Shown: positions 1,267-62,896 of the stretch, one piece after another
Numbering within the stretch: position 1 is the first letter of the stretch
Layout of the letters: the number at the start of each line of letters is the position of its first letter
From: Cloacibacterium caeni
Lineage (GTDB): Bacteria > Bacteroidota > Bacteroidia > Flavobacteriales > Weeksellaceae
NCBI RefSeq assembly: GCF_907163125.1
Contig: NZ_OU015319.1
Coordinates: forward strand, 1,178,001 to 1,242,000
Direction: 5' to 3'
DNA length: 64,000 bases
Made by a program: the position numbers and the translations under genes
Notes under the pieces: model-generated
Seen by the model: only the letters and a program-made list of their open reading frames with translations
What the model was told of the DNA's origin: nothing
The model's database searches: none

Positions 1267-1294
1267 GATTTGAGATTTTAGATTTCAGAGAAAA
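1267..1294. repeat. Heptamer-period degenerate repeat, tract 1
   Basis: Four 7-bp units in register: GATTTGA, GATTTTA, GATTTCA, GAGAAAA. It fills the gap directly upstream of the UbiA-family start codon. It is one of eight tracts in this window with the same 7-bp period (others near 17951, 19691, 37426, 41290, 43711, 56030, 62862). Confidence 0.7.
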
Positions 1295-1327
1295 AAATTG
1301 AAAATTTCAGACTTCTTTATAAAAATC

Positions 1328-2254
1328 TTAAAATCTATAAATCACTTCTTTGTTGAAGCCTTCTAGCATTTTGTCTGCTTTTTCGTAATCTTTGGCAAAA
1401 CCAAGAATATAACCACCGCCTCCACTTCCGCAGAGTTTTAAGTAATAAGCATTGGTATCAAGACCTTTTTTCCAAGCATTGTAAAGATTGGTAGGAATCA
1501 TCGGTTTGAAATGAACATAAGCCCATTTAGAAAGGTCTTTCAAATGTTTGAAAAACGGCTTCATTTCTTTGTTCAGGAAAGTATCAATACAAGCATTATT
1601 GTACTTAATGAATTCTTCTTTCAAAGTTTTTCTGAAACCTTCATTTTTTAATTTTTCAAAAAATATTTGAACCATCGGTCCAGTTTCACCTACAGAACCA
1701 GAATCTATCAAGAAAATCGCACCTTTTCCAGCTTCTTCTTTTGGAATAGAAACTTTGTCTACACTTTCTTTGTTTTCAATGAGAATCGGAAGGTTCATGT
1801 AACAAATCAAAGGGTCAATTCCAGAAGATTTACCATGAAAATAAGACTCTAATTCTCCGAAAACTCTTTTCAAATCTTTTAATTGATTTTTAGAAATTTC
1901 TTCCGGATTATATTTAATGAAAGAATATTTTTCGAAAATAGCTGCTACCAAAGCTCCAGAACTTCCTACTCCATAACCTTGCGGAATATTAGAATCAAAA
2001 AATAATCCTTTTTCTATATCTTTTTTGAAGGCTTCTACATTAATTTTAAAAGCTTCAGGAAGATTTAATTCAGATAAATATTGAGCGTATTTAGATAGAG
2101 ATTCGTTTGATTTTTTCTCGAAATCAGATTGATTTTCAGAAAATTTAAGAGTGCCTTTGTAGAAACTGTACGGCAAGGTTAATCCTTGAGAATCTTCTAT
2201 GATTCCGTACTCTCCGAAAAGCAATATTTTAGCGTAAAATAACGGGTTCGTCAT
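1328..2254 (-). CDS. Mevalonate kinase (GHMP kinase family)
   Basis: A 308-residue GHMP-superfamily kinase. N-terminal FYAKILLFGEYGII matches the substrate-binding strand of mevalonate kinases (KxxxxGEH-type, here GEYG), the phosphate-binding loop is PQGYGVGSSGA near residues 91-101, and motif 3 is the glycine-rich KLCGSGGGGYILG near residue 275. HGKSSGIDP carries the usual catalytic aspartate region. The enzyme phosphorylates mevalonate at the 5-hydroxyl in the cytosolic mevalonate route to isopentenyl diphosphate, used by Weeksellaceae instead of the MEP route. Phosphomevalonate kinase is an alternative within the superfamily, but motif arrangement and the UbiA neighbour favour mevalonate kinase. 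A Bacteroidota promoter (TATCTTTG) lies 25 bp upstream, and an IS element is inserted just upstream of it. Confidence 0.82.
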   Translation of the reverse strand: MTNPLFYAKILLFGEYGIIEDSQGLTLPYSFYKGTLKFSENQSDFEKKSNESLSKYAQYLSELNLPEAFKINVEAFKKDIEKGLFFDSNIPQGYGVGSSGALVAAIFEKYSFIKYNPEEISKNQLKDLKRVFGELESYFHGKSSGIDPLICYMNLPILIENKESVDKVSIPKEEAGKGAIFLIDSGSVGETGPMVQIFFEKLKNEGFRKTLKEEFIKYNNACIDTFLNKEMKPFFKHLKDLSKWAYVHFKPMIPTNLYNAWKKGLDTNAYYLKLCGSGGGGYILGFAKDYEKADKMLEGFNKEVIYRF

Positions 2255-2278
2255 TAATCTATTCTATGTTTGGTAATG

Positions 2279-2310
2279 CAAAGATAATAAAAAATCTTTT
2301 TCTATGTAAA
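2279..2310 (-). promoter_or_regulatory. Promoter of mevalonate kinase
   Basis: On the minus strand, TATCTTTG (complement of 2279-2286) fits the Bacteroidota -7 consensus TAnnTTTG exactly. A TTTA (2307-2310) lies 20 bp upstream at the -33 position. The predicted leader is about 20 nt. The ISL3-type element begins 49 bp beyond the -33 box, so the promoter is intact. Confidence 0.6.
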
Positions 2311-2408
2311 GATACTGATTATCAACAAATTTCAGGCCAAATTTTCCGAAAAAATTTAGGATCAGTAACAAAAGTTGGGTAGAATGATTAAATTTCTATC
2401 TTTACATC

Positions 2409-2762
2409 ATGTTCAACGATCACGAATTATTGAAGTTTTTACTTCCTGAATACTTAATCGAATACTTTAATATTGTAAAATTTGAAGAGATTGATGGCTT
2501 GCTTCATCTCTATTTTGAAGAGAAAAATACAATTCCAAAAGAATTTTCAACGATACAACTTCAATCCAAAGGCTTTCACGAAGTGATTATCGTAGATGAC
2601 TTTCCGCTTCGAGGAAAAGCCGTTAAACTTCACATCAAACGAAGAAGATGGACGGATACAAAATCAGGAAAAATCACACAAAGAGATTGGATGCTTATTG
2701 CCAAAGGAACTCGAATGACACAGGATTTTGCTGAGTTCTTAAAAAAAATCAGCAGATACTAA
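2409..2762 (+). CDS. ISAon1-type transposase, N-terminal frame
   Basis: A 117-residue protein similar to the N-terminal region of ISAon1-type (ISL3 family) transposases. It is probably the DNA-binding part, with a basic stretch (LHIKRRRWTD) typical of the region that precedes the DDE domain. The frame ends at 2762, but the second frame is open from 2743, so the two overlap across an eight-A run (2741-2748). A +1 slip or loss of one A there would fuse them into about 441 residues. The start has TATCTTTA-N4-ATG, a near match to the -7 box only four bases before the ATG, suggesting a very short or absent leader. Confidence 0.85.
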   Translation: MFNDHELLKFLLPEYLIEYFNIVKFEEIDGLLHLYFEEKNTIPKEFSTIQLQSKGFHEVIIVDDFPLRGKAVKLHIKRRRWTDTKSGKITQRDWMLIAKGTRMTQDFAEFLKKISRY

Positions 2763-2790
2763 AGCTCTTCCCCTAGAAACCATCGGAGAA

Positions 2791-3735: not shown

Positions 3736-3792
3736 TCCCCAACTTTTGTTACTGATCCAAAATTTAATTGAAAACTCATTATAAAAAACATT

Positions 3793-5463: not shown

Positions 5464-6252
5464 ATGGCAAGAAGCAGTTTTTATTACTATCAAAAACGCT
5501 TTCAAATGAAAGATAAATATGCGGAAATAAAAGAAATGATTAAGCAGATTTATCATCGTCATAAAGGAAGGTTGGGCTATAGAAGAATTACTTTGCTTTT
5601 GAAAGAAAAAGGAATTTTGATTAATCACAAAACTGTTTTACGACTTATGAAAATATTAGGTTTAAAGAGTATTATCCGAGTGAAGAAATATAAATCTTAC
5701 AAGGGAGAGCAAGGGAAAATTGCGCCCAATGTTCTACAGAGGAATTTCAAATCGGACACTCCTAATCAGAAATGGGCAACCGATGTTACAGAGTTTAATG
5801 TATCGGGTAATAAACTTTACCTATCTCCAATCATCGATTTATTTAATGGTGAAATTGTCAGTTTTGACTTATCTGAAAGACCTGTGTTTAGCCAAATCAT
5901 CAGAATGCTAAAGAAATCATTCAGAAAAGTAAAATCTACACAAAACATCATTCTACATTCTGATCAAGGTTGGCAATATCAAATGAAACATTACCAAAAC
6001 TTGTTAAAAGAAAAAGGTATTATTCAAAGTATGTCCCGAAAAGGAAACTGTTTGGACAATGCGGTGATAGAAAACTTTTTTGGAACGATAAAATCAGAAA
6101 TGTTTTATACCAGAAAGTTTGGTTCCATTCAGGAACTTAAGAAGGAAATAGTGAAGTACATTCACTATTACAACAATGATAGAATAAGACTCAATCTCAA
6201 AGGAAAGAGTCCGGTACAGTACCGAACTCTTTCCTTTGAAAATATTGTTTAA
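5464..6252 (+). CDS. IS3-family transposase OrfB (integrase core)
   Basis: A 262-residue rve-type DDE integrase domain. Catalytic residues are visible: the first D in WATDVTEF, the second D in LHSDQGWQYQ, and E in NAVIENFFGTIKSE, with the downstream K/R. The N-terminal YRRIT-type HTH_21 segment (RLGYRRITLLLKEKG) is present. The frame extends upstream to the slippery site at 5365-5371, so the natural N-terminus is in OrfA. The ATG at 5464 is only the first in-frame methionine. No stops or missing residues, so it is likely functional. Confidence 0.92.
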   Translation: MARSSFYYYQKRFQMKDKYAEIKEMIKQIYHRHKGRLGYRRITLLLKEKGILINHKTVLRLMKILGLKSIIRVKKYKSYKGEQGKIAPNVLQRNFKSDTPNQKWATDVTEFNVSGNKLYLSPIIDLFNGEIVSFDLSERPVFSQIIRMLKKSFRKVKSTQNIILHSDQGWQYQMKHYQNLLKEKGIIQSMSRKGNCLDNAVIENFFGTIKSEMFYTRKFGSIQELKKEIVKYIHYYNNDRIRLNLKGKSPVQYRTLSFENIV

Positions 6253-6299
6253 TTTTGTCTAAACTTTTGGGTGCAGTCTATTTTCAGCGTGTTTTCTTG

Positions 6300-7379
6300 T
6301 TATTTATCAATCATGATATTGTTTTGAACTTCAATGGATTCTTCGTGAATCGCCTTGAAAACTTTTTCTATAAAATCTTTGCCCATTCCAGATTCTTCGG
6401 CTCTTGCAGAGGCATATTCTGCAATCACTTTCCAACGGTCTGGCTGGAAGATTGCGATATTATTCTCTTTCTTCAACGCTCCAATTTTTTCAGAAATTTT
6501 CATTCTGTTTGATAATAATTCTATTAATTGGAAGTCAATATCAGAAATTAAAGCTCTGTGTTTGCCCATTTCTTCATCAAATCCAGAAATATCTGAGTTT
6601 CTAATTTGTAGATTTCCTAACATTTCAGCCAAAACTTCTGGCGTAATTTGTTGAGCTGCATCACTCCAAGCTGCATCTGGATTGCAGTGAGATTCTATCA
6701 TCGCTCCTTCGTAACCTACGTTAAATGCTTCCTGAGTAACATCCGAAAGCAAATCTCTTCTACCACAAATGTGAGAAGGGTCTACAAACATTGGAATATT
6801 CGGATATTGGTGTTTAAAATCTAATGCGATTTGCCAATTGGGTAAATTTCTATATTTTGTTTTTTGATAAGATGAAAATCCTCTGTGAATAACGCCTAAG
6901 TTTTTCACATCTTGACCTAAAAGTCTTTCTAAAGCACCAATCCAAAGTGCTAAATCTGGATTTACCGGATTTTTCACCAAAACAGGTTTATTGGTTCCCT
7001 TTAATGCCACAGCAATTTCTTGAACGGTAAATGGATTTACGGTAGAACGCGCTCCAATCCAAAGAATATCTACATCTGCTTCTAGAGCTGCATAAACGTG
7101 ATGTGCATTGGCAACTTCGGTTGCTGTTTTAAAACCAAACTCGTCTTTTACTTTTTTTAGCCAATTAAGACCGATAACTCCTACTCCTTCGAAACCATTT
7201 GGTTTGGTTCTTGGCTTCCAAATTCCTGCTCTAAAAACGGGAACTTCTGCACCACTTTCTTTCAATCTTTGTGCAGTTTCCATCATTTGTGCTTCTGATT
7301 CTGCGCTACAAGGTCCTGCTATAATTAATGGTTTCGAGAACTCATTAATCCAATCGTTTTGTAAATCTTTTAAATTCAT
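6300..7379 (-). CDS. Bifunctional DAHP synthase / chorismate mutase type II
   Basis: A 359-residue fusion. The N-terminal ~265 residues are a type I-beta (KDPG-like) 3-deoxy-7-phosphoheptulonate synthase (IIAGPCSAESE at residue 20, PVFRAGIWKPRT ~50, GVIHRGFSSY ~160, PMFVDPSHICGRR ~195). The C-terminal ~90 residues are an AroQ-type chorismate mutase helix bundle (HRALISDIDFQLIELLSNRM). It joins the first step of the shikimate route to the chorismate-to-prephenate step, and in related enzymes the mutase domain confers feedback control by prephenate. This fusion is characteristic of Bacteroidota. The gene has its own upstream hairpin boundary, and its downstream terminator has been disrupted by the IS3 element, so read-through antisense into the IS is expected. 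Confidence 0.93.
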   Translation of the reverse strand: MNLKDLQNDWINEFSKPLIIAGPCSAESEAQMMETAQRLKESGAEVPVFRAGIWKPRTKPNGFEGVGVIGLNWLKKVKDEFGFKTATEVANAHHVYAALEADVDILWIGARSTVNPFTVQEIAVALKGTNKPVLVKNPVNPDLALWIGALERLLGQDVKNLGVIHRGFSSYQKTKYRNLPNWQIALDFKHQYPNIPMFVDPSHICGRRDLLSDVTQEAFNVGYEGAMIESHCNPDAAWSDAAQQITPEVLAEMLGNLQIRNSDISGFDEEMGKHRALISDIDFQLIELLSNRMKISEKIGALKKENNIAIFQPDRWKVIAEYASARAEESGMGKDFIEKVFKAIHEESIEVQNNIMIDK

Positions 7380-10221: not shown

Positions 10222-11912
10222 TTAACTTAAATCTAGCTTCATCAATTCATCTAAATCTTTTAAAACAGGATTAATTTCTACATATTTCTGGAAAATATCT
10301 CTTTTAGTCTCTTGTTTTTTGATGAGTTTTTTGTCTTCTCGGTAAGAAACTTCTATTTTGTAGTTATTGACTTTTCTCTTGAAATGATTAAAAAATTGCG
10401 CTTGAATTTTCTCGAACTCAGTTTTCACCAAATCTGAAGGATATAAAATTTCTACTACATTTTCTTCTTTTTTATGAAGTTTTGCTGTATTTACGGCAAA
10501 ATAGGTGACTTGGTCTTTTATAAATAAATCATTTAGAAAAACTTGCCATTCTGTTTGTAAATCTTTTTCGGTGAAGTGATGGTCTGGTAAATCTTCTTCT
10601 TTTTTCTGAGGAGTGACAACTACTTCTTCTTCCTCTTTTTTATTGAGCGTAGCAAGAATGCTAAATTCTGAAACAATGGTTTTCTTAACAATTGGTTCAG
10701 TAATTTTTTGAACAGTTTTTGGAACAGATTCTTCTGTTTTTTTAGTTAACGGTAAAGTTTCTTGTGGTTTTTCTGAAGCTACCTTTGGTTTTTCGCTTTC
10801 CTTTTTACGAAATAGTGGCGCTAGAATTAAGAACTTTTTTTTTTATCATCACTTTTCGCAGCAGTAAGACTGGCCAACTGCATCAAAGCGATTTCTACCG
10901 TTAATCTTGGATTTTTAGAATTTTTGTAATTAATATCTGCGTGATTACAGATTTCTATAGCATCTATGAGTTGCTGAGCACTCCAATTTTTGCTCTGTTC
11001 AGAAAACTTCTGTTTCGTGTTCTCACCTACTTCTATTAGAGCAAGTGTAGAAGCATTCTGAGCCATCATTAAATCACGGAAATGACTTCCCAATCCACCA
11101 ATAAATAAATGTGGGTCAAAACCTTTTTTAACAATATCATTGAAAGCGGTAAGGATTCCCGGAATGCTATTTTCTTTTGCGAAATCTACAATTTTCAAAT
11201 ATTGATCGTAATCTAGAATATTGAGAACTTCTGCAGCTTTAGCAAGCGTAATATTTTTTTGAGTAAAAGTGGTAAGTCTATCGAAGATAGAAAGTGCATC
11301 TCTTAGTGCTCCATCTGCTTTTTGAGCAATTAAAAACAATGCATCATCTTCATAATTTACACCTTCTTTTTCAGCAATTTTTCTAAGATGTTCCTGTATA
11401 TCTTCAATAGTGATTCTTTTGAAATCATAAATCTGACATCTTGATAAAATGGTAGGAATTATCTTATGTTTTTCGGTAGTTGCTAAAATAAAAATAGCGT
11501 GAACTGGAGGTTCTTCTAATGTTTTAAGAAAAGCATTAAACGCCGCTGTAGACAGCATATGAACCTCGTCTATAATGTAAATTTTATATTTCCCAACTTG
11601 TGGAGCAAAACGAACTTGGTCTGTTAAATCTCTAATATCATCTACTGAGTTATTAGAAGCAGCATCTAATTCAAAGATATTATACGCAAATCCGTCTTCT
11701 GAGGTAGAACCATCTTTTTCGTTGATTTTTCTAGCCAAAATTCTAGCACAAGTCGTTTTTCCTACACCTCTTGGTCCGCAAAAAAGCAACGCTTGAGCCA
11801 ACTGACTATTTTCTATGGCATGTTCTAAGGTATCTGTAACGTGAGATTGCCCTACAACAGTGTCAAACTCTTGCGGACGATATTTTCTTGCGGATACGAT
11901 AAAATTTTCCAT
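10222..11912 (-). CDS. dnaX: DNA polymerase III subunit gamma/tau, frameshifted
   Basis: Clamp-loader ATPase of the replicase. The upstream frame (11912 down to 10827, 361 residues) holds the AAA+ module: P-loop GPRGVGKTT (~46), Walker B IIDEVHML (~117), sensor 1 ATTEKHKI, sensor 2 GALRDALS, then the oligomerisation collar. It ends two codons after a run of ten A (complement of 10835-10844). The -1 frame is open from that run down to 10222 with no stop. It encodes ~200 further residues: a Lys/Glu/Pro-rich linker, then a conserved-looking domain starting around LQTEWQVF. A -1 slip gives a 563-residue tau-like protein, and normal reading a gamma-like one. The Cys zinc module seen in many bacterial DnaX is absent (after RKIN comes EKDG). 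An alternative is a single-base homopolymer error in the sequence. Confidence 0.9.
10835..10844 (-). other. dnaX slippage site, run of ten A in the mRNA
   Basis: The mRNA reads GAT GAT then A10 then GTTCTTAA. In the gamma frame this gives Asp-Asp-Lys-Lys-Lys-Ser-Ser-stop. After a -1 shift it gives AAG TTC TTA and continues for ~200 codons. E. coli dnaX uses A AAA AAG for ribosomal -1 frameshifting, and Thermus dnaX uses an A9 run for transcriptional slippage. Position and outcome here are equivalent. Confidence 0.8.
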
Positions 11913-12005: not shown

Positions 12006-14279
12006 TTATTTACAACATTGGAAATATTCGGTTTCACAATTTTTTCCTTGAGCGGAACATTCTTTCATACATTCTGTATTACAATTAGTCATAGAAACGG
12101 ATTTCTTTTGAGAGGCAGAAATCATGGTTTCAATTTTATTTTGTCTGTCTTTTTCAATTTTTTCGGCAAACATAGAAGCTAATGTAGGAGCAATAACCAA
12201 AGAAACAATTGACATTAACTTAATTAAAATATTCATTGAAGGTCCAGAAGTATCTTTAAATGGATCACCTACTGTATCTCCTGTTACTGAAGCTTTGTGC
12301 ATTTCAGAACCTTTGTAATAAGTTTCTCCATTTACATCTACTCCTTTTTCAAAAGATTTTTTCGCATTATCCCAAGCTCCACCAGCGTTATTTTGGAACA
12401 TTCCAAGTAAAACTCCACTTGCGGTAGCTCCCGCTAAAAATCCTCCTAAAACTTCAGGCCCCCAAATAAAACCAACTAATAATGGAGTAACAATAGCGAT
12501 AGAACCTGGTAATAACATTTTTTTGATAGAAGCATCCGTAGAAATCGCTACGCATTTATCATATTCTGGTTGCCCAGTTCCTTCTAAAATTCCTGGAATT
12601 TCTCTGAACTGTCTTCTTACTTCTTCTACCATTGCCATAGCCGCTTTTCCTACTGCATTAATAGCTAATGATGAGAAAATAAACGGAATCATTGCCCCAA
12701 TAAAAAGCCCCGATAAAACATCTGCTTTATAAATATCAATACCATCAATTCCTGCAATTCCAACAAATGCTGCAAATAGCGCTAAAGCTGTAAGTGCTGC
12801 AGAAGCAATAGCAAATCCTTTTCCAGTAGCTGCAGTAGTGTTTCCTACAGCATCTAAAATATCTGTTTTTTCTCTTACACTTTTTGGCAATTCACTCATT
12901 TCTGCAATTCCACCTGCATTATCTGCAATTGGTCCGAAAGCATCAATCGCTAATTGCATGGCTGTAGTTGCCATCATTCCAGCAGCAGCAATAGCTACTC
13001 CATATAAACCTGCACAAAGATAAGAACCCCAAATTCCCGCAGAAAGTACAATCATTGGCAATAATGTAGATTCCATTCCCACAGAGAGTCCACCAATAAT
13101 ATTAGTTGCGTGTCCTGTAGAAGACTGTTTCACAATACTTGTTACAGGTCTTTTTCCCATTGCTGTGTAATATTCAGTAATGATAGACATCAATGTTCCA
13201 ACTACTAAACCTACCATAATCGCTCCGAAAACACCCATTCTGGTAAACTCAAAACCTCTTAAAGACATATTTTCAGGAAGAATGAAATTCACCAAGAAAT
13301 AAGAAGCAACCGCTGTTAGAATAATACTTCCCCAGTTCCCCATGTTTAATGCTTTTTGAACTTTAGCAGTGGTATCTTCTGTTTTATCTGAAATTTTAAC
13401 AAAGAAAGTTCCTATAATAGAAAATACAATTCCAGTTCCTGCAATAAGCATTGGTAAAAGAATTGGAGCGAAACCACCATAATTATCTACCGATAAAGTT
13501 TCTCTACCCAAAACCATCGTTGCTAAAACAGTAGCCACATAAGAGCCAAATAAATCTGCTCCCATTCCTGCAACATCTCCCACATTATCTCCTACATTAT
13601 CCGCAATCGTAGCTGGATTTCTAGGATCGTCTTCAGGAATACCTGCTTCTACTTTCCCTACTAAATCTGCACCTACATCTGCTGCTTTGGTATAAATACC
13701 ACCACCAACTCTTGCAAATAAAGCAATAGATTCTGCTCCTAAAGAAAAACCAGTCAATATTTCGATGGCTCTTTCCATTTCGTGGGAATCTACACTGGCT
13801 TCTGGCGCAAAAATTTGTTTAATAATTAAGAATAAAGAACCTAAGCCTAAAACAGCAAGACCTGCAACTCCCATTCCCATTACAGAACCTCCAGTAAAAG
13901 AAACTTTAAGCGCTTGAGCTAATGAAGTTTTAGCCGCTTCTGCTGTTCTTACATTTGATTTCGTTGCGATTTTCATTCCTATATAACCTGCTGTTGCCGA
14001 AAAAACTGCTCCTACAGCAAATGCTACTCCTATACTCCAATGAGAATTAGCATTGCTAAATCCCATAATTCCCAATAATACACCTACCACAATTACAAAA
14101 TAAGTAAGGATACGATATTCAGCTTTTAGAAAAGCCATCGCTCCATCTGCAATATGACCACTAATGGTTTTCATTCTGTCATTACCTGCTGGTTGCTTAC
14201 TTACCCAAGAACTTTGAACGAAGGTATAAAGTAAGGCTATGACACCAAAAAGAGGTACCAAATAAAATAGTAAATTCAT
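12006..14279 (-). CDS. hppA: Membrane-bound ion-pumping pyrophosphatase
   Basis: A 757-residue protein with about 16 membrane helices that couples pyrophosphate hydrolysis to Na+ and/or H+ export. The catalytic loop has the family motifs [28 protein letters not shown] and [13 protein letters not shown] near residues 195-255, and a second acidic loop near 690 ([14 protein letters not shown]). The site [10 protein letters not shown] has Ala where K+-independent enzymes have Lys, so it is predicted to be the K+-stimulated subtype, usually Na+-pumping. Unusual: after the last helix there is a ~40-residue soluble tail ending in a Cys-rich segment (six Cys in the last ~26 residues, CNTECMKEC... and a terminal CCK). 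The soluble pyrophosphatase gene ppa lies immediately upstream on the same strand. Confidence 0.95.
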
Positions 14280-14405
14280 AGAATATTAATTTTTGTTAAC
14301 AATTGATGGGACTAATATAGTAAAAACAATAACACAAAAAACAAATTTAGATTTAAGATTTTTTAAGTTATGATTTATATCGTAAAGTACCGAAAATAAA
14401 ACAAA

Positions 14406-15647: not shown

Positions 15648-16544
15648 TTATTGTCTAATAAAATACGATTTAAGTAACTGAATCTTAGAGTTTTCTACGA
15701 AAGCGTAATTTTCTTCTGTCGCTCCAAAACGCCTATAAAATTCTGCAATTTCAGAAATATTACTTCCATGAAAGTTAAAATCTTTTTTCTCAATGTTTTT
15801 TCTGAAAATTTGGTCAAGAATAATAGACGATAGATTATACTTAGAAAATTTTTTATCATTAATAAAATTAACCAAAAAATCTTCTTTTTCAGATTCTATT
15901 AGATAAGCTTGTGAAGCTAATTTCCCATCAAAATACAATTCATATACTTTTAAAAGATTTTGACTCAAAAAGTTTTTCATATTTTCAAAAGCTCGCTTTT
16001 TCAAAGAAAAATTTGGAAAACCAATTACATTTTCAGTAAAAAAAGATTCAGAATGATTCAGATTTTCTGCTTCCGTAAATTTTATTTTATCCTGCAAAAC
16101 ATCTGTAATCCTTACGTTTCTTCTTCTGTGAATAGAATATTTCTTTTTGATACTTTCGTAATCTTCAGAAAATAATTTATAGTTTTTTCTAGTTTTTAAA
16201 TGCGTTTTAAACTCATTTTTCGCATTAAAAGCATAGTAAAACACCTTATAATGTTGTTGAAAAAATGCTAAAAACGATTCATTCAATTCTGGAGTATCTT
16301 TTTCTGAAAAAATTCCTAACTGTTGAGTTTGCAAAGGCATTACCACAAAGTTAAAACTCCATTTTTTCGCTAAAGGAATGGGCATTACTGCTTCGTAATC
16401 ATTATCAACAAGAATTTCCCAATTTTGATGAAGCAAAAGGTCTAAATATTTTTTTTTGGCAAAGAGAATGTATTGTTCAGAACGCTTTAAACAATTTTGA
16501 TATTTCTGCCAATCTATTTCTTCATATTTCAGTCGCTTTATCAT
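15648..16544 (-). CDS. FemAB/GNAT-like acyltransferase, uncharacterised
   Basis: A 298-residue soluble protein. The C-terminal part (residues ~190-290) looks like a GNAT/FemAB fold: a strand with the sequence KLASQAYLIE, then ISEIAEFYRRFGATEENY near the end, the FYxxFGA pattern seen in peptidyl or amino-acyl transferases. The N-terminal half has the pattern of a second related lobe. The substrate is unknown. The stop codon is followed by a 35-bp gap to the next gene, and the start overlaps the radC stop by 4 bases, which indicates translational coupling with radC. Confidence 0.55.
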   Translation of the reverse strand: MIKRLKYEEIDWQKYQNCLKRSEQYILFAKKKYLDLLLHQNWEILVDNDYEAVMPIPLAKKWSFNFVVMPLQTQQLGIFSEKDTPELNESFLAFFQQHYKVFYYAFNAKNEFKTHLKTRKNYKLFSEDYESIKKKYSIHRRRNVRITDVLQDKIKFTEAENLNHSESFFTENVIGFPNFSLKKRAFENMKNFLSQNLLKVYELYFDGKLASQAYLIESEKEDFLVNFINDKKFSKYNLSSIILDQIFRKNIEKKDFNFHGSNISEIAEFYRRFGATEENYAFVENSKIQLLKSYFIRQ

Positions 16545-17218
16545 AATAAACCTGCTTCTGCAAAACTGTAAAATGAATTTTCGCCAATTATGATATGGTC
16601 TAGCAATTTAATGTCTAAAATTTCGCCAGCATTTTGAATATTTTTAGTCATTCTAATGTCTGCTTCGCTCGGTTTTAGAACACCAGTTGGATGATTATGC
16701 GCCACAATAATATTAGTGGAAAAATTCTCTAAAGCTTCTTTAAAGAGCACTCTAACATCTACATGAGTTGCAGAAATTCCGCCTTTTGAAATTTGAGTTT
16801 TTTTAATCAGTTGATTTTTCTGATTCAAGAAAATTACCCAAAACTCTTCTGTTCTGAGGTCGGAAAGATGTGGCAAAAGTATTTTATAAGCCTGTTCAGA
16901 ACTTTTGATAATCAATTTTTCTGGAATTTCTTGTGATGCTTTTCTTCTGCCAATTTCCAGCGCTGTAGCAATAGAAATTGCTTTTGCTTCACCAATTCCT
17001 TTGAATTTCATCAAATCTTTTATGGAAAGTAAACTCAGATTTTGCCAATTATTGTCTACACTTTTCAAAATTTTCTGAGCGAGTTCTACCGCAGATTCTT
17101 CTGTATTTCCACTTCCTAAAATGATCGCCAATAATTCTGAATCTGAAAGTGCAGATTTACCCTTCAAAAGAAACTTTTCTCTTGGTCTATCATCTTCAGA
17201 AAGGAATTTTATTGACAT
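16541..17218 (-). CDS. radC: RadC family protein (JAMM metalloprotein)
   Basis: A 225-residue member of the RadC/MPN family. The N-terminal helix-hairpin-helix part includes MKFKGIGEAKAISIATALE (~70-88). The C-terminal JAMM domain has the zinc motif HNHPTGVLKPSEAD (HxH...D, ~174-187) and an upstream glutamate (FKEALEN). Named for DNA repair in E. coli, though its actual biochemical role remains unclear. Normal length and intact motifs. The downstream acyltransferase-like gene overlaps its stop by 4 bases. Confidence 0.92.
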   Translation of the reverse strand: MSIKFLSEDDRPREKFLLKGKSALSDSELLAIILGSGNTEESAVELAQKILKSVDNNWQNLSLLSIKDLMKFKGIGEAKAISIATALEIGRRKASQEIPEKLIIKSSEQAYKILLPHLSDLRTEEFWVIFLNQKNQLIKKTQISKGGISATHVDVRVLFKEALENFSTNIIVAHNHPTGVLKPSEADIRMTKNIQNAGEILDIKLLDHIIIGENSFYSFAEAGLL

Positions 17219-17267
17219 TCTTTAGGTTAAGGTAAACTTTGTTCTTTTTACTTTTTACTTGGCTCTT

Positions 17268-17933
17268 TTATAAAATAAGTCCGTCTTTCATGACTAATTT
17301 TCTATCGGTACTTTCTGCCAATTCTTTATTGTGCGTTACAATCACAAAAGTCTGATTATATCTGTCTCTTAAATCAAAGAAAAGTTGATGCAGTGCATCT
17401 GCATTTTTGGAATCTAAATTTCCAGTGGGTTCGTCTGCAAAAATAATTTTCGGAGAATTGATTAAAGCTCTGGCTACGGCTACACGTTGCGCTTCACCAC
17501 CAGAAAGTTCTTTGGGTTTATGCTGAATTCTATGTGCAATGTGTAATTCTTCGAACAACAGAAATGCTTTGTCCATAGATTCTTTTTCGTTTTTCCCAGA
17601 AATTCTCGTTGGCATCAAAACATTTTCTAAAGCTGTAAATTCTGGCAATAACTGATGATGCTGAAATACGAATCCTATGTTTTCATTTCTAAATTTAGAA
17701 ATTTCTCTGTCGTTCATTTTTAGGAATGATTGATCACCAATCGTTAATTCAGTGCCGTATTTATCTATATGAGAAGGCAAATCTAAAGTTCCCAGAATGT
17801 GTAGCAAAGTAGATTTACCAGCTCCTGATTCTCCAACAATGGAAACAATTTCGCCTGTTTTTATTTCTAAGTCTACTCCTTTTAGAACTTCTAAATCACC
17901 GTAAGATTTGTGAATATTTTTCGCTTTAATCAT
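17268..17933 (-). CDS. lolD: ABC transporter ATPase, LolD/MacB type
   Basis: A 221-residue ATPase with Walker A GESGAGKSTLL (~34), Q-loop FVFQHHQLLP (~90), signature LSGGEAQRVAVARAL (~142) and Walker B IIFADEPTGNLDS (~162). The size and the EPTGNLDS motif are typical of the LolD/MacB/FtsE class, which drives lipoprotein release to the outer membrane or similar mechanotransmission. No permease gene is adjacent, so the partner (LolC/E-like) must be elsewhere. The symbol is by class similarity. The -7 box TATTTTTG ends 4 bases before the ATG, predicting a leaderless mRNA, and a heptamer-period tract lies directly upstream. Confidence 0.85.
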   Translation of the reverse strand: MIKAKNIHKSYGDLEVLKGVDLEIKTGEIVSIVGESGAGKSTLLHILGTLDLPSHIDKYGTELTIGDQSFLKMNDREISKFRNENIGFVFQHHQLLPEFTALENVLMPTRISGKNEKESMDKAFLLFEELHIAHRIQHKPKELSGGEAQRVAVARALINSPKIIFADEPTGNLDSKNADALHQLFFDLRDRYNQTFVIVTHNKELAESTDRKLVMKDGLIL

Positions 17934-17950: not shown

Positions 17951-17985
17951 TTGATGTGAGATACGAGATATGAGACATGAGATTT
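17951..17985. repeat. Heptamer-period degenerate repeat, tract 2
   Basis: Units in register: TTGATGT, GAGATAC, GAGATAT, GAGACAT, GAGATTT. It lies directly upstream of the lolD-type gene promoter, at the position where a -33 box would be expected. Confidence 0.75.
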
Positions 17986-18065: not shown

Positions 18066-19679
18066 TTACAGTAACATAGTCAACGGACTTTCTAAATAAG
18101 TTTTAAGAGTCTGTAAGAATTGTGCACCTGTAGCGCCATCTACTACTCTATGGTCACAAGCTAGAGAAAGTTTCATGGTATTTCCTACCACGATTTGACC
18201 GTTTTTAACCACTGGTTTTTCAATAATTGCACCTACTGAAAGAATACAAGAATTCGGTTGGTTAATAATCGATGTAAAGGTTTCGATTCCAAACATACCA
18301 AGGTTAGAGATAGAGAAAGTAGAACCTTCCATTTCATTCGCTTTAAGACCTTTTGATTTCGCTCTAGAAGCCATATCTTTTACAGATGCAGAAATTTGAT
18401 TATAATTCATGTAATCTGCATTTTTAAGAACTGGAACTACTAAACCATCTGGAATTGCAACAGCTACACCTACGTTGATATTTCCGTGGTGAATAATTTT
18501 ATCACCTGCCCAAGAAGAATTTACTTGTGGGTGTTTTCTCAATGCTAAAGCAGTAGCTTTAATCACCATATCATTGAAAGAAACCTTAGTATCTGGTAAA
18601 CTATTCAACTCTTTTCTAGCTTCGATAGCTTTGTCCATGTTGATTTCTACCATTAAATAGTAGTGAGGCGCAGTAAATTTACTTTCAGAAAGTCTTTTTG
18701 CAATTACATTTCTTACTTGAGAGTTTACGGTTTCTGTAGTTTCACCTGCTACGAAATTCATAGCCACTTGAGCGGCAGGAGCAGAAGCTACACTTGTAGA
18801 AACTGCAGCAGTTTGCTGAACTGGAGCTGCACTTGGTTGATAATTTTCAATATCTTTTTTAACGATTCTTCCGTTGTCTCCACTTCCTTTAACGGTTGAA
18901 ATATCAATTCCTTTTTCTGAAGCCATTTTTTTAGCTAAAGGAGAGATATTAATTCTTCCGCCAGTAGAAGTTGTAGTAGAAACTGGTGCATTTACTGCTG
19001 GTGCAGATTCTGTTTTTGGAGCCTCTGCAGCAACTGGAGCAGCAACTTTTCCGCCACCTGCAACAATTGCAGAAACATCTGTTCCAGCAGGACCAATAAT
19101 AGCTAAAATTTCATCAACATTCGTTGCATTTCCTTCTGAAACGCCTTGGTAAAGAAGCGTCCCTTTAAATTCTGATTCAAAATCTTGAACCGCTTTATCT
19201 GTTTCAATTTCTGCAAGAATATCACCTTCTTTTACATCATCACCTACATTTTTGTGCCATTTAGCCACTTTTCCTTCAGTCATGGTATCAGAAAGTCTAG
19301 GCATAGTAATTACTTCTACACCTGCAGGAATCTCTGCTGAAACAGCCGAAACTTCTGGTGCAGAAACTGCAACTTCTTCTTTCTTTTCTTCTGTTTGAGG
19401 AGCAGAATTACCTCCTGAAACTAAACCAGAAATATCTTCTCCGGCATTTCCTATAATTGCTAAAACGCTATCTACAGGAGAATTACTTCCTTCTTCTGTA
19501 CCAATGTATAAAAGAGTACCGTTAAATTCTGATTCAAAATCTTGAACGGCTTTATCTGTTTCGATTTCGGCTAAAACATCGCCTTCTTTTACTGTATCAC
19601 CTACTTTTTTATGCCATTTTGATACTTTTCCCTCGGTCATTGTATCAGAAAGTCTGGGCATTGTAATTACTTCAGCCAT
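18066..19679 (-). CDS. Pyruvate dehydrogenase E2, dihydrolipoamide acetyltransferase
   Basis: A 537-residue E2 core subunit that transfers acetyl from lipoate to CoA. It has two lipoyl domains, each with EIETDKAVQDFES carrying the lipoylated lysine (near residues 42 and 160). These are joined by Ala/Pro/Val-rich flexible linkers. A peripheral-subunit-binding domain follows (ISPLAKKMASEKGID, ~245), then the acetyltransferase domain ending with the active-site DHRVVDGA (~510). The start is taken at the ATG at 19679 (MAEVITMPRLSD), because the 18 residues further upstream are translated heptamer repeat. It follows pdhA on the same strand with a 96-bp gap. The E1 beta and E3 genes are not in this window. 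Confidence 0.94.
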   Translation of the reverse strand: MAEVITMPRLSDTMTEGKVSKWHKKVGDTVKEGDVLAEIETDKAVQDFESEFNGTLLYIGTEEGSNSPVDSVLAIIGNAGEDISGLVSGGNSAPQTEEKKEEVAVSAPEVSAVSAEIPAGVEVITMPRLSDTMTEGKVAKWHKNVGDDVKEGDILAEIETDKAVQDFESEFKGTLLYQGVSEGNATNVDEILAIIGPAGTDVSAIVAGGGKVAAPVAAEAPKTESAPAVNAPVSTTTSTGGRINISPLAKKMASEKGIDISTVKGSGDNGRIVKKDIENYQPSAAPVQQTAAVSTSVASAPAAQVAMNFVAGETTETVNSQVRNVIAKRLSESKFTAPHYYLMVEINMDKAIEARKELNSLPDTKVSFNDMVIKATALALRKHPQVNSSWAGDKIIHHGNINVGVAVAIPDGLVVPVLKNADYMNYNQISASVKDMASRAKSKGLKANEMEGSTFSISNLGMFGIETFTSIINQPNSCILSVGAIIEKPVVKNGQIVVGNTMKLSLACDHRVVDGATGAQFLQTLKTYLESPLTMLL

Positions 19680-19690
19680 AATTTTTATAT

Positions 19691-19765
19691 TGATTTGAGA
19701 TTCGAGATTCGAGATTCGAGATTTAAAACTCAAAGAATTTCAAACTCAAATTTCAAATTTCAAAT
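19691..19765. repeat. Heptamer-period degenerate repeat, tract 3
   Basis: Units GAGATTC, GAGATTC, GAGATTC, GAGATTT (19697-19724), three of them identical. They are followed by a looser run of CAAATTT-like heptamers (ATTTCAA, ATTTCAA) to about 19765. It fills the gap between pdhA and the E2 start. Confidence 0.75.
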
Positions 19766-19775
19766 GAATTTAAAA

Positions 19776-41289: not shown

Positions 41290-41324
41290 GATGCAATATT
41301 TTAGATTTTAGATACTAGAAAAAT
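41290..41324. repeat. Heptamer-period degenerate repeat, tract 5
   Basis: Units GATGCAA, TATTTTA, GATTTTA, GATACTA, GAAAAAT in register, just after the stop codon of the NtrC-like gene. Confidence 0.55.
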
Positions 41325-43691: not shown

Positions 43692-43710
43692 ATAAATTAG
43701 TACAATAAAC

Positions 43711-43738
43711 TCGGAACGCGAAACCCGAAACGCGAAAC
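43711..43738. repeat. Heptamer-period degenerate repeat, tract 6
   Basis: Units TCGGAAC, GCGAAAC, CCGAAAC, GCGAAAC in register. Unlike the other tracts it is GC-containing (GCGAAAC). It lies 8 bp after the stop of the histidine kinase (minus strand). Confidence 0.75.
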
Positions 43739-52207: not shown

Positions 52208-52239
52208 TTTTCACAATTTCTGGTTTAAATGTACATTTG
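52208..52239 (+). promoter_or_regulatory. Promoter of the cobalamin riboswitch transcript
   Basis: TTTT (52208-52211), 20-bp spacer, TACATTTG (52232-52239), an exact TAnnTTTG. It places the transcript start near 52245, just ahead of the riboswitch. Confidence 0.65.
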
Positions 52240-52247
52240 CAATGCTT

Positions 52248-52432
52248 TTGGTTTCCGATGTTTGTCGGAATTAAAATGGGAATTCGGTGAAAATCCGAAA
52301 CTGTCCCCGCAACTGTAGATCGTGCTTCGGTGAAAATCGAAGGAATTTTTTGCAAAAAAAGCCATTATCTTATTTGAAAAGATGAGAAGGTGCAAAAAAT
52401 GCGAAAGTCAGGAGACCTGCCAAAAACATTCA
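52248..52432 (+). ncRNA. Cobalamin riboswitch
   Basis: Conserved segments are present in order: ATGGGAATTCGGTG (52276), AATCCGAAACTGTCCCCGC (52292), AACTGTAGAT (52311) and GTCAGGAGACCTGCC (52407-52421), the B12-box core. P1-P3 arms, a P6 region (CGAAGG) and a long AT-rich insertion between the core parts are consistent with the adenosyl/methylcobalamin class. Binding of B12 should reduce expression of the downstream outer-membrane receptor. Confidence 0.95.
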
Positions 52433-52433
52433 T

Positions 52434-52530
52434 TATCAATACTTTCGGAGGAAAAGTAGAGAAATCCTGTAAAAAACGCAGTTCTTCTGTGGTTTTTCTT
52501 TATTTCTTTTCCAGAAAGTTATTGATAGCA
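52434..52530 (+). promoter_or_regulatory. Expression platform hairpin of the cobalamin riboswitch
   Basis: Distal arms TATCAATACTTTC (52434) and GAAAGTTATTGATA (52514) pair, with GGAAAAG/CTTTTCC and GAAA/TTTC inside, and an inner AAAAACGCAG/CTGTGGTTTTT hairpin followed by a T-rich run. This ~95-nt stem lies between the aptamer and the ATG at 52554. The inner hairpin with its T-run could be a terminator. Confidence 0.5.
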
Positions 52531-55554: not shown

Positions 55555-56028
55555 ATGAAAATTAATTTACTCTGCATAGGCAAAACTGACGATAAAGAAA
55601 TTAAAAATCTCATCAATTACTATCTTACAAGACTTCCCAGACATTGGAATTTCGAAATTACAGAAATTCCAGATGTTAAAAATGCTAGAAATCTCACGTC
55701 TGATTTGCTTAAAAAAGAAGAAGCTAAATTATTTATCAACCAAATAGAAAACACAGATTTGGTAGTGCTTTTAGATGAAAAAGGAAAACAATTTACCAGC
55801 AGAGAATTTGCTCAAAAATTAGATTCTTATCAAAATAATTCTATCAAAAAAATCTGTTTTTTAGTGGGTGGAGCTTATGGTTTTTCAGAAGAAATGTATC
55901 AAAGAGCAAACGAAAAAATCTCCATTTCTAAAATGACTTTCACGCATCAAATGATTCGATTATTTTTTGTAGAACAGATTTACCGAGCAGACCAAATCCT
56001 ACAAGGAAAACCGTATCATAATGACTGA
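55555..56028 (+). CDS. rlmH: 23S rRNA pseudouridine(1915)-N3 methyltransferase
   Basis: A 157-residue SPOUT-class methyltransferase that modifies pseudouridine 1915 in helix 69 of 23S rRNA on assembled 70S ribosomes. FLVGGAYGFSEEMYQRA (~102-118, SAM-binding knot) and the C-terminal LFFVEQIYRADQILQGKPYHND (~135-157) are characteristic. LVVLLDEKGKQFTSREFA is conserved. Length is exactly that of the family. Single gene. The start ATG lies within the divergent promoter zone. Confidence 0.95.
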   Translation: MKINLLCIGKTDDKEIKNLINYYLTRLPRHWNFEITEIPDVKNARNLTSDLLKKEEAKLFINQIENTDLVVLLDEKGKQFTSREFAQKLDSYQNNSIKKICFLVGGAYGFSEEMYQRANEKISISKMTFTHQMIRLFFVEQIYRADQILQGKPYHND

Positions 56029-56029
56029 T

Positions 56030-56085
56030 GAGTTACGATTTGGGATTTTAGATTTAAGATTTAGAAATTATGAGTCTTGAGTTGT
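56030..56085. repeat. Heptamer-period degenerate repeat, tract 7
   Basis: Units GAGTTAC, GATTTGG, GATTTTA, GATTTAA, GATTTAG, AAATTAT, GAGTCTT, GAGTTGT in register (8 units). It starts 2 bp after the rlmH stop and runs into the last codons of the PAP2 gene, whose C-terminus (VTTQDS) is therefore encoded by the repeat. Confidence 0.8.
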
Positions 56086-56643
56086 AACTTCTGACTTTTT
56101 GATGACTTTTTTTGCTAAAGTTCCAAAGAATAAAGCCAAAAGAATTCCCATGATGGCACCTACTATGATATCTCCAGGAAAATGCATTCCGAGATAGACT
56201 CTACTGTATGCAACGATAGCTGCCCAAACAAATAGAAAATAGGGCAATTGTTTTATTTTTTTGCCTAAAAGTATGGTAAGATAAGTCGCTACAAAAAAAG
56301 AATTAGACGAGTGCGCAGAATAAAACCCGAATTTTCCACCGCATTTTACTTCTCTCAACAAACCTTCTAACGATGGGTCATGACAAGGTCTTAATCGCTC
56401 AAATCCAAATTTAAAAATATTAGCGATTTGGTCAGAAGCTGTAATTCCTAATGCTACAAAAAGCAATATGTAGAACAATGATTTTTTATTGAAATTTTTA
56501 TACAAAAAATATAAAAAAACAACATAAAGCGGAATCCAGAACCATTTTTCTGAAACCAAAATCCAGAACGGATCAAAAGTAGAACTTCCTAAATTGTTTA
56601 GGAAAATCATGGCTTGTTTGTCTTCTAAAATAATTTCTTCCAT
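56068..56643 (-). CDS. PAP2-family membrane phosphatase
   Basis: A 191-residue protein with about five to six membrane helices and a complete PAP2 signature: KFGFERLRPCHD (KxxxxxxRP, ~74-82), YSAHSSNSF (the SxH motif with the catalytic His, ~105-113) and SRVYLGMHFPGDIIVGA (SRxxxxxHxxxD, ~148-160). It would dephosphorylate undecaprenyl pyrophosphate or other lipid phosphates. Its start overlaps the tatA stop by one base (TAATG), so it is translationally coupled. The last 6 codons come from the heptamer repeat. Confidence 0.92.
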   Translation of the reverse strand: MEEIILEDKQAMIFLNNLGSSTFDPFWILVSEKWFWIPLYVVFLYFLYKNFNKKSLFYILLFVALGITASDQIANIFKFGFERLRPCHDPSLEGLLREVKCGGKFGFYSAHSSNSFFVATYLTILLGKKIKQLPYFLFVWAAIVAYSRVYLGMHFPGDIIVGAIMGILLALFFGTLAKKVIKKSEVTTQDS

Positions 56644-57002: not shown

Positions 57003-57034
57003 TCTGCAAATTTAAATTATTAATTAATAATTAT

Positions 57035-61274: not shown

Positions 61275-61309
61275 TGTTTATAGTTTACAACATTTAAAAT
61301 TATAGTCGG

Positions 61310-61317
61310 CAAATATA
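61310..61317 (-). promoter_or_regulatory. -7 box of secDF
   Basis: The complement reads TATATTTG, an exact TAnnTTTG, 36 bases before the secDF ATG, with TTTT 19 bp upstream. Confidence 0.5.
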
Positions 61318-61438
61318 ATGATTATCAGTTGAAATAAAAATTTTGTTTACATGATTTTTGAAGATATTTCACAGAATTCAGGTAATAAAGCGACAAAGGA
61401 ATCCCAAATTCAAAAAAATCTTATGAATTTCAAAACAA

Positions 61439-61464
61439 AAAAGACGCAAATCATTGCGTCTTTT
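61439..61464 (-). terminator. Terminator after hemN
   Basis: Perfect 11-bp stem AAAAGACGCAA-atca-TTGCGTCTTTT. On the minus strand T-rich sequence follows. It lies 27 bp after the hemN stop. Confidence 0.88.
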
Positions 61465-61490
61465 CAATATATTTTAATGGATTTTGCAGA

Positions 61491-62849
61491 TTAAACCGTC
61501 ATCGAAAACAATCTGGTTTCCGGCATTTTTCTCATCATTCTTAAGTCAAAAGCCATGGCAACATTTCTAGTGAAAACTCTTCCTTTTTCAGTAATTTTCA
61601 CGGTATTTCCTGAAATTTCTACCAGACCATCTTCTTGCATTTCTTGTAGCTTTTTCAATGCTTCTGGTAATTCTTCAAAAGAATTTTCTGGTGTAAAAGT
61701 GGTTTCTAACTGACACATTAAATTGAGAATATGTCTTCTTAATTTTAAATCTTCTTCATTTAAAATATGACCTTTCACCACAGGAATAATTCCTTCTTCT
61801 ACTCTTTTTTGATATTCTTCTACCGATTTTTCGTTTTGAGCAAAAGCATACCAAGAATCCGAAATCGCAGACATACCTAAACCAACCATCAATTGAGTAT
61901 TACTCGATGTATAGCCCATGAAATTTCGGTGTAATTTTTTATGAATTAAAGATTGGTACAAATCATCTTTTTCGAGTGAAAAATGGTCCATTCCTACTTC
62001 TATATAACCTAATTCTTCTAACAGTTTTTTGCCGTTTTCGTAGAGTTTTCGTTTTTCTTCGCCACTTGGCAAATCATTTTCGTCAAATCCACGTTGACCA
62101 ACTCCTTTTATCCACGGAACGTGAGCGTAAGAATAAAATGCAAGCCTGTCTGGTTTTAATTCCAAAGTTTTTCTGATGGTAAATTCCATCGCGTCCCAAG
62201 TTTGGTGCGGTAAACCAAAAACCAAATCGTGAGAAACACTCTTATAACCAATTTCTCTAGCCCATTCTGTAACGTTTTTCACATTTTCGAAAGGCTGAAT
62301 TCTATTGATGGCTTTTTGAACTTTTGCATCATAATCTTGCACTCCGAAACTACATCTTCTGAAACCTAAATCATACAAAGTTTGCAAATGTACTTTTGTA
62401 GTATTGTTTGGGTGACCTTCAAAAGAAAATTCAGGATTTTCGGCAATTTCTACGGTGCTAAAAATTCCTTCTAGTAAAATTCTCAAATTTTCTGGAGAGA
62501 AAAAGGTAGGAGTTCCTCCACCGAGATGCAATTCTTTAAGCTTTGGTTTTTCTTCAAAAAGATTCAGATAGAGATTCCACTCTTTTAAAACACTTTCTAA
62601 ATAAGGTGTTTCCACAGAATGTTGTTTAGTTATGCGTTTATGACAAGCACAAAAAGTACACAATTGCTCACAAAAAGGAAGGTGAATATAAATAGAAATT
62701 CCTTCTTGAGCATTGCTCTCGTTGAAAGATTGAATAACAGTTTTTTGCCATTGTTCAGAAGTAAAACCATCATTATCCCAGTAAGGAACAGTAGGATAAG
62801 AAGTATATCTAGGTCCCGGAATATTATATTTATCGATAAGTGAATTCAT
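61491..62849 (-). CDS. hemN: Oxygen-independent coproporphyrinogen III oxidase
   Basis: A 452-residue radical SAM enzyme that decarboxylates coproporphyrinogen III to protoporphyrinogen IX without oxygen. The cluster motif is FCEQLCTFCACHK (CxxxCxxC plus the extra Cys, ~58-66). Also conserved: LHLGGGTPTFFSPENL (~105), SFEGHPNNTT, RCSFGVQDYD and the N-terminal YNIPGPRYTSYPT that binds the second SAM in HemN. These distinguish it from HemW. Start: TAATTTTG-CAAA-ATG, again a -7 box only four bases from the start. A heptamer tract lies right behind it. Confidence 0.94.
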   Translation of the reverse strand: MNSLIDKYNIPGPRYTSYPTVPYWDNDGFTSEQWQKTVIQSFNESNAQEGISIYIHLPFCEQLCTFCACHKRITKQHSVETPYLESVLKEWNLYLNLFEEKPKLKELHLGGGTPTFFSPENLRILLEGIFSTVEIAENPEFSFEGHPNNTTKVHLQTLYDLGFRRCSFGVQDYDAKVQKAINRIQPFENVKNVTEWAREIGYKSVSHDLVFGLPHQTWDAMEFTIRKTLELKPDRLAFYSYAHVPWIKGVGQRGFDENDLPSGEEKRKLYENGKKLLEELGYIEVGMDHFSLEKDDLYQSLIHKKLHRNFMGYTSSNTQLMVGLGMSAISDSWYAFAQNEKSVEEYQKRVEEGIIPVVKGHILNEEDLKLRRHILNLMCQLETTFTPENSFEELPEALKKLQEMQEDGLVEISGNTVKITEKGRVFTRNVAMAFDLRMMRKMPETRLFSMTV

Positions 62850-62853
62850 TTTG

Positions 62854-62861
62854 CAAAATTA
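62854..62861 (-). promoter_or_regulatory. hemN -7 box, four bases before ATG
   Basis: The complement reads TAATTTTG-CAAA-ATG, exact TAnnTTTG with N4 spacing. The heptamer tract occupies the spacer and -33 region upstream. Confidence 0.5.
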
Positions 62862-62896
62862 GGGATTAGGTTTTAGTTTTTAGGGATTAGTTTTAA
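62862..62896. repeat. Heptamer-period degenerate repeat, tract 8
   Basis: Units GGGATTA, GGTTTTA, GTTTTTA, GGGATTA, GTTTTAA in register, immediately upstream of the hemN -7 box. Confidence 0.7.

Follow-up and report, generated by a model that had tools for sequence, protein, structure and literature searches.

Degenerate intergenic repeats with a seven-base period in Cloacibacterium and related Weeksellaceae

We analysed a stretch of 64,000 nucleotides (the window), bases 1178001-1242000 of the 2.98-Mb single-contig genome of a Cloacibacterium (Weeksellaceae). One protein encoded there has a 100% identical counterpart in Cloacibacterium normanense IMET F and a 93% identical one in C. rupense, in line with that genus. 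An original prediction, made from the sequence letters alone, had listed eight intergenic tracts of degenerate tandem repeats in this window, all with an exact period of 7 bp. We found all eight tracts, and lag 7 gave the best self-match for each of them among lags 4-12, with scores ranging from 10.0 to 22.5 (Table 1; tracts 1267, 37426 and 43711 are the arrays whose refined starts are 1266, 37422 and 43708). Gene borders were taken from open reading frame (ORF) models without annotation. Tracts 1267, 17951, 19691, 37426 and 62862 sit 2-17 nt before start codons and tracts 41290, 43711 and 56030 sit 1-7 nt past stop codons, in agreement with the five upstream and three downstream positions first described. 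Two details of that description had to be amended. The tract at 19691-19765 does not parse into whole heptamers (its 75 bp make 10.7 units) and consists of two arrays, GATTCGA at 19692-19723 and TCAAATT at 19746-19765. The tract at 56030-56085 is not wholly intergenic and enters the 3' end of the ORF at 56068-56643.

Table 1. Repeat arrays of the window (window coordinates) and sites of the compound element of Bergeyella zoohelcum (contig coordinates).
Feature	Position	Remarks
Heptamer array GATTTGA GATTTTA GATTTCA, degenerate	1266-1294	Score 12.0; 2 nt before start of ORF 371-1264 (-)
Short heptamer array, unit ACTTTTT	17237-17260	Score 12.0; Tandem Repeats Finder 17236-17260, period 7
Heptamer array GAGATAC GAGATAT GAGACAT	17951-17985	Score 13.0; before start of ORF 17268-17933 (-)
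Heptamer array GATTTGA GATTCGA x3	19692-19723	Score 22.5, the window's strongest; between ORFs 18066-19679 (-) and 19776-20777 (-)
Second heptamer array, unit TCAAATT	19746-19765	Score 13; same spacer, 18066-19679/19776-20777
Heptamer array TTTTAAA	37422-37460	Score 17.0; before start of ORF 36580-37419 (-)
Weak heptamer array TATTTTA GATTTTA GATACTA	41290-41324	Score 10.0, lowest of the eight; past stop of ORF 40098-41282 (+)
Heptamer array AACGCGA / AACCCGA	43708-43738	Score 14.0; between converging ORFs
Heptamer array GATTTGG GATTTTA GATTTAA GATTTAG	56021-56085	Spans end of ORF 55555-56028 (+), spacer and end of ORF 56068-56643 (-); best segment 56021-56063 scores 13.5, spacer portion alone 12.5
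Minor lag-7 segment AATTAAT	57015-57033	Score 9.5, near chance
Heptamer array GGGATTA GGTTTTA GTTTTTA GGGATTA	62858-62896	Score 11.5; before start of ORF 61491-62849 (-)
Compound heptad element of B. zoohelcum	L273:11528-11698, 14260-14375, 16967-17089; L266:10175-10312; L258:9986-10100; L219:10159-10260	

The intergenic DNA of the window (49 regions, 6.5 kb) held 11 segments at lag 7 with a score of at least 9, versus 0-3 at every other lag from 4 to 13; lag 14 gave six, five of which were lag-7 arrays again. Three of the lag-7 segments lie beyond the earlier list: 17237-17260, 57015-57033 and the second array within the 19691 tract. We derived the chance level from 300 dinucleotide shuffles. 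The number of segments expected per window at lag 7 was 0.0 for tract 19691, 0.007 for 37426, 0.023 for 43711, 0.033 for 56030, 0.037 for 17951, 0.093 for 1267, 0.123 for 62862 and 0.287 for 41290. When any lag from 4 to 15 was allowed, tracts 41290 (3.6 expected), 62862 (1.2) and 1267 (0.8) were individually non-significant. These three tracts taken singly are what one would point to if the repeats were chance periodicities of AT-rich DNA. The array counts from the sampled genome (61 versus 5.7 at score 10, 28 versus 0.5 at score 14) refute that explanation, as does the refined count given below, and we give it hardly any credence. The set of tracts as a whole, together with the genome sample, is significant.

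The genome sample comprised 40 stretches of 20 kb plus the window, 864 kb in all (29% of the genome), with 612 intergenic regions totalling 103 kb. Arrays were counted against dinucleotide-preserving shuffles of the intergenic DNA, with a score of at least 14 as the main cut-off; the values just quoted are those for period 7. Period 8 gave 12 arrays versus 0.4 in shuffled DNA. At the other short periods the observed and shuffled counts were 0 and 0.8 (period 4), 0 and 0.4 (5) and 3 and 0.3 (6), and at longer ones 1 and 0.4 (9), 0 and 0.2 (10), 3 and 0.07 (11), 1 and 0.2 (12), 0 and 0.1 (13) and 4 and 0.07 (15). The harmonics stood at 20 versus 0.07 (14) and 10 versus 0.03 (21). Coding DNA was nearly free of such arrays, with four period-7 segments in 688 kb against 28 in the 103 kb of intergenic DNA. 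The refined count excluded the window, allowed one array per region and removed homologous copies; it left 18 arrays at period 7, 9 at 8, 3 at 6, 1 at 9, 3 at 11 and 3 at 15. Cloacibacterium therefore clearly prefers a period of 7, then 8, over 6 and 9, and does so with many unlike units.

The genome-wide autocorrelation that had been proposed as a check was less decisive. Over the 864 kb, the intergenic mean at lags 6, 7, 8 and 9 had z values of 0.0, 8.4, 6.2 and 7.6, respectively, so that the bulk signal is not sharp. Mean autocorrelation was raised at lags 2, 3, 8, 9 and 11 as well as at 7, and we dropped it as a test in favour of counting arrays, which brings out the expected excess of 7 over 6 and 8 more sharply (28 versus 3 versus 12).

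We made the same count in relatives; here as in the refined count, regions with runs of N (one such run lies in L256) were omitted. A Chryseobacterium-rich set was drawn from one syntenic region of Chryseobacterium, Elizabethkingia, Epilithonimonas, Riemerella and others. Once duplicates were removed, its 76 loci (165 kb intergenic) had 13 arrays at period 7, 11 at period 8, 6 at period 14 and 0-2 elsewhere at score 14; at score 11, period 8 (22) exceeded period 7 (17). Bergeyella zoohelcum stretches that had not been chosen by pattern (36 kb) had six arrays at 7 and three at 8. The lead of 7 is thus seen in Cloacibacterium and Bergeyella, with 8 drawing about level in the Chryseobacterium-rich set. 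Elizabethkingia alone had one period-7 array at score 14 in 9.1 kb, and Riemerella alone had none in 4.7 kb. From six further genomes of the family we took one 20-kb stretch each, small samples with 1.6-3.5 kb of intergenic DNA apiece; together they held one period-7 segment that reached score 10 and none that reached 14. Three shorter contigs (L216, L225, L226) were not used. Two small controls were negative: no arrays at periods 4-15 were found in 22 kb of intergenic DNA of E. coli K-12, and none at score 14 in 17 kb from six order-level relatives. Degenerate 7-base intergenic repeats are real in Cloacibacterium and in many of its relatives.

If the arrays grow and shrink by whole units, related species should differ accordingly, and a comparison of unit numbers had been suggested from the outset. 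Tracts 1267, 37426 and 43711 do differ by one 7-bp unit between related species. Congeners such as G001, G002, G005 and G006 are ~93-95% identical to the window, and G003, which is C. rupense, ~80%. Compared with our genome, G001, G005 and G006 carry an additional unit in tract 1267, and G005 carries one more in array 43708 and 7 bp more in array 37422. At 41290, a 7-bp tandem indel was called against G005, whose spacer carries ~600 bp extra. Array 17951 has the same length in G002 and G005 with a different unit, GATTTTA, and their spacers are ~255 bp longer beyond the array. Array 19692 is identical in G000, G001, G002 and G006, slightly altered in G005 and absent from C. rupense. The spacer holding array 56021 is 30 bp longer in our genome than in G001 and G005, and the 62858 spacer aligns poorly between congeners. 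As a separate observation, the spacer 1265-1327 is replaced in G002 by non-homologous, 8-mer-like DNA though its flanking genes are ~95% identical, a case of fast turnover of intergenic DNA.

We also surveyed indels between congeners in the 155 of 634 spacers with orthologues, counting events once per spacer and length. All seven clean 7-bp indels were tandem. Tandem events of other lengths numbered three at 6 bp, one at 8, two at 9, one at 11 and none at 4, 5, 10 or 12. This result shows variation by whole units for the arrays, and not for intergenic DNA in general.

The internal structure of the arrays points the same way. Across 38 arrays, the identity between units was 0.87 for neighbours and 0.825, 0.787, 0.762 and 0.756 at increasing distance, and in all three groups tested similarity was highest between adjacent units and dropped with distance, as stepwise duplication predicts. 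Some arrays are exact (L052, ATTTTAG x5.7), but most are degenerate, as the identity between adjacent units reflects. Variation is concentrated in certain columns of the unit, significantly so against random placement (23, 17 and 17 arrays of at least 28 bp in the three groups). When we compared this pattern with a neutral simulation of duplication plus mutation, which omits any array exceeding 112 bp (2 of our 23), it fell within expectation for both Cloacibacterium (z 0.2-0.5) and Bergeyella (z 0.8-1.4). Pooling sites from as many as four congeners, we found substitutions at 43 of 781 compared sites within arrays (0.055) and at 1910 of 44132 outside (0.043). The rate in arrays is not below that outside, and the arrays are therefore not specially conserved.

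The units do vary by locus, as first claimed, yet they are related rather than freely different. The best common word, ARWTWTK (AGATTTG), fitted 38 non-duplicate arrays with a value of 189.5 versus 152.8 +/- 8.5 for random intergenic heptamers, and 19 arrays of relatives with 112.1 versus 81.3 +/- 5.5; four other Cloacibacterium arrays gave no signal (22.9 versus 22.5 +/- 2.6). GAGATTN x3 with at most two mismatches had 34 matches at 17 places in our genome, and the reversed pattern had four. TTAGANN x4 at a spacing of 7, with at most one mismatch, occurred in 91 of 120 family genomes. Spacings 6 and 8 served as the null and were found in 2 and 11 of the 120, respectively; the reversed pattern was rejected as a null, being itself an AGATTNN-type heptad that outnumbers TTAGANN x4 in our genome (40 versus 19 matches). 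At the order level, TTAGA x4 at spacing 7 was present in 31 of 119 genomes, made up of 13 of 14 Weeksellaceae and 18 of 105 others.

Three further regularities were tried and set aside. One-sidedness of G and C in the units seemed strong (0.74 versus 0.32) under a control that ignores repetition and was weak against single heptamers in three sets (14 versus 9.1 +/- 2.3, 9 versus 5.8, 6 versus 5.2). Wobble slippage, which predicts mainly transitions between units, was unsupported by the 55 transitions and 90 transversions of our arrays. A strand preference relative to genes was not accepted as established because it varies between data sets: our arrays were antisense by 28:10 with duplicates and 22:10 without (p 0.05), with the word trained on them the ratio was 8:9 in relatives, and it was 1:3 in C. 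rupense and another Cloacibacterium, which together supplied four arrays, and the G-rich strand was antisense by 16:9, 13:3 and 6:5 in three sets.

A distinct, compound form of array was seen in Bergeyella zoohelcum ATCC 43767. Here, a dispersed element runs as [TTAGARR] x3-6, TTGTACA ATGTACA AAGTATA ATGTACA, and [TTAGARR] again, in one 7-bp register; adjoining higher-order units measure ~69 bp each. Our genome has long spacers of 0.6-1.3 kb (L051:4265-4836, 6019-7304, 10730-11282 and 15927-17070) in which 7-mer arrays of up to 116 bp lie beside 8-mer arrays (GTAAAGTT, GTTAAGTC), and the array order is partly common to two or more of these spacers.

Such compound arrays raise the question of whether the repeats are dispersed mobile or recombining elements, copied from locus to locus and not born locally. 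The middle part of the Bergeyella element, with up to three mismatches, had 39 matches in that genome, none for the reversed control and 0-1 in four other genomes, and this abundance of one compound element speaks for copying, as does the partly shared order in the L051 spacers. However, when a single array per spacer was retained and those with shared flanks were dropped, 38 of the 47 arrays of our genome were left. Judged by these flanks, copying between loci is in our view quite unlikely as the origin of the arrays.

The shared word and the Bergeyella register also bear on whether the arrays are candidate binding sites. Each subunit of some protein that binds DNA or RNA might read one heptamer, in which case selection would hold the period and let the unit drift. 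The omega repressor reads plasmid heptads in this way, one heptamer per subunit. Cold-shock proteins bind T-rich heptamers, according to a passage of PMC4679880. A degenerate word common to the arrays, TTAGANN x4 across most of the family, strings of unlike heptamer modules held in one register at many dispersed places in B. zoohelcum, and arrays that hug gene borders would all suit such a protein. Against it, protein-bound heptad arrays such as omega repressor sites would be expected to keep a conserved unit and to have a cognate binding protein, and the arrays of Cloacibacterium carry no extra conservation. Moreover, some orthologous spacers of close species hold other units, an 8-mer-like array or none, arrays occur both before starts and past stops, any orientation bias with respect to genes is weak and does not hold across data sets (22:10 antisense in our arrays versus 8:9 in relatives), and neutral slippage explains the look of a fixed core in both Cloacibacterium and Bergeyella. 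A binding function for the arrays is, on this evidence, rather unlikely. We similarly regard it as unlikely that a specific copying or binding machine of the Weeksellaceae sets the 7-bp step (8 being the chief alternative), with arrays built or kept around TTAGANN / AGATTTG and the Bergeyella register itself looking as if it were read.

Five of the eight tracts lie 2-17 nt before a start codon, a position that would also fit part of a promoter or leader of the gene that follows. TAnnTTTG is the -7 element of Bacteroidota promoters. It was found in the sense direction in 1 and in antisense in 1 of the 38 arrays that lie between co-directional genes; the other three tracts follow stop codons, and some arrays are replaced between species. 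A promoter or leader role is thus very improbable.

Taken together, these results suggest that the arrays are intergenic heptanucleotide simple-sequence repeats that slippage in ~7-bp steps creates and wears down, a reading to which we assign a probability of roughly 0.7. The lead of period 7, the one-unit differences between species, the decay of similarity along arrays and the fit to neutral slippage in Cloacibacterium all support the local expansion that had been proposed. We infer slippage during DNA synthesis as the process, and the size of the step would reflect the hold of the replication machinery on DNA. Slipped-strand events would duplicate or delete a block of about 7 bases (in the family, of 8 too) in weakly constrained intergenic DNA. 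Point mutations would then diversify the units, and renewed slippage would copy neighbouring variants; mutation combined with such copying would leave arrays that are degenerate yet in register. The sequence that expands would be set by the local word, with a bias to A/T-rich words such as AGATTTG, TTAGANN and TGAGTTA. A regulatory role is not needed to explain the arrays, and slippage does not depend on whether 7 leads in the whole family.

Several observations weigh against slippage in 7-bp steps. The shared word and the family-wide TTAGANN exceed what a purely local process would give, unless slippage favours certain words. The step is not uniform: period 8 is a second step that matches 7 in frequency in the Chryseobacterium-rich set, C. 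indologenes (43 kb, score 14) has three arrays at 7, two at 8 and two at 6, and our own genome has the small excesses noted above at periods 6, 11 and 15. Some length differences do not fit either, since an 8-bp deficit is seen in G002 for array 37422 and in G001, G002 and G006 for the 41290 spacer, and the spacer 17219-17267, home of a 7-bp array, has a 6-bp tandem indel. Previously flagged tracts account for four of the seven clean tandem indels of 7 bp, and there is therefore no excess of 7-bp events outside them (three at length 7, three at length 6). Chryseobacterium pairs have no clear 7-bp tandem peak (tandem to other events 2/3 at length 7 and 3/12 at length 8), and the column pattern of Chryseobacterium arrays is more concentrated than in the neutral model (z 2.1-3.3). 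Lastly, arrays lie nearer to gene borders than randomly placed ones (median 8 versus 16.3 +/- 2.9, 39 arrays), a closeness that may mark only where tolerant DNA lies.

How do these arrays compare with known repeats? The short tandem repeats (STRR) of cyanobacteria are near-identical copies of a few heptamers. The likeness drawn to them at the start therefore holds for the period and the intergenic place and goes no further, since the units here vary within and between loci. STRR heptamers are mentioned for Calothrix in a passage of PMC4692102. The same source, in the passages concerned, describes GGGAATC and GGGGA(T/C)T repeats of Xanthomonas and Nostoc that share with ours the heptamer period, the non-coding bias and the variation of length and sequence between related strains; they are G-rich and quadruplex-capable, whereas the Cloacibacterium units are mostly A/T-rich. 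Bacterial satellites derived from heptamers, such as (GATAGRA)n of Chloroflexus aurantiacus, appear in an excerpt of PMC6749651 as abundant, with their derivatives, in some bacteria; unlike our arrays they are longer, and they belong to an unrelated phylum. TAACTGA direct repeats are reported from Beggiatoaceae, some Cyanobacteria and five Bacteroidetes (MacGregor 2015, PMC4679880, in the sections concerned). Those too are intergenic heptamer arrays, often near start codons, and the accounts we draw on describe one fixed unit, unlike the varied units of Cloacibacterium; the exact TAACTGA doublet occurs 0 times in our genome and 1 time in 7 Cloacibacterium genomes. A passage of PMC4679880 also notes larger heptamer-repeat assemblages in Elizabethkingia anophelis NUHP1, a relative of Cloacibacterium.

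The closest match is to prokaryotic heptanucleotide long simple-sequence repeats (LSSR). As cited in part in PMC4679880, Mrazek and colleagues (2007, PNAS) found that in most genomes heptanucleotides outnumber every other class, and suggested that the polymerase makes a 7-nt contact, a proposal that a passage of Rehm 2015 (PMC4692102) carries as well. As in the LSSR described there, unit length 7 exceeds the neighbouring lengths in our arrays. Like LSSR whose unit length is no multiple of three, the Cloacibacterium arrays are mostly intergenic, and their copy number shifts by whole units in tracts 1267, 37426 and 43711, with 8-bp differences also seen (37426, 41290). They differ from LSSR, as far as those passages portray them, in being strongly degenerate and AT-rich, in sharing a family word and in having a second step of 8. 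Among the matches listed, PMC4679880 (Elizabethkingia) was the only literature on heptamer repeats in Weeksellaceae, and a search for Cloacibacterium with tandem repeat returned no match. Given the earlier heptamer reports, this kind of repeat is already known; what is new here is its degenerate, widespread form in one family, the shared word and the counted step of 7 and 8.

Why simple repeats of bacteria prefer seven bases has been an open question since the preference was first noticed. With an order of 7, then 8, then 6 and 9 in Cloacibacterium, near equality of 7 and 8 in Chryseobacterium and differences of single units between species, this group could test whether the step originates in replication geometry. 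The tracts are also candidate variable-number markers.

Some minor observations complete the picture. No phage similarity was found for the stretch 19640-19800. Rfam gave nothing at the gathering threshold except one cobalamin riboswitch, at 52232-52438 of the window, upstream of the ORF at 52554. Elsewhere in the genome, at L048:10732-10937, an 8-bp array (GTTGTAAA) runs straight into a 138-bp array of 7-bp units (TGAAGGA / TGATGGA), as if the step had changed midway. A 15-bp tandem array (CTTCAGCAAAGAGAA) occurs in two spacers (L037:613-668 and 2261-2318) and is possibly unannotated coding sequence.

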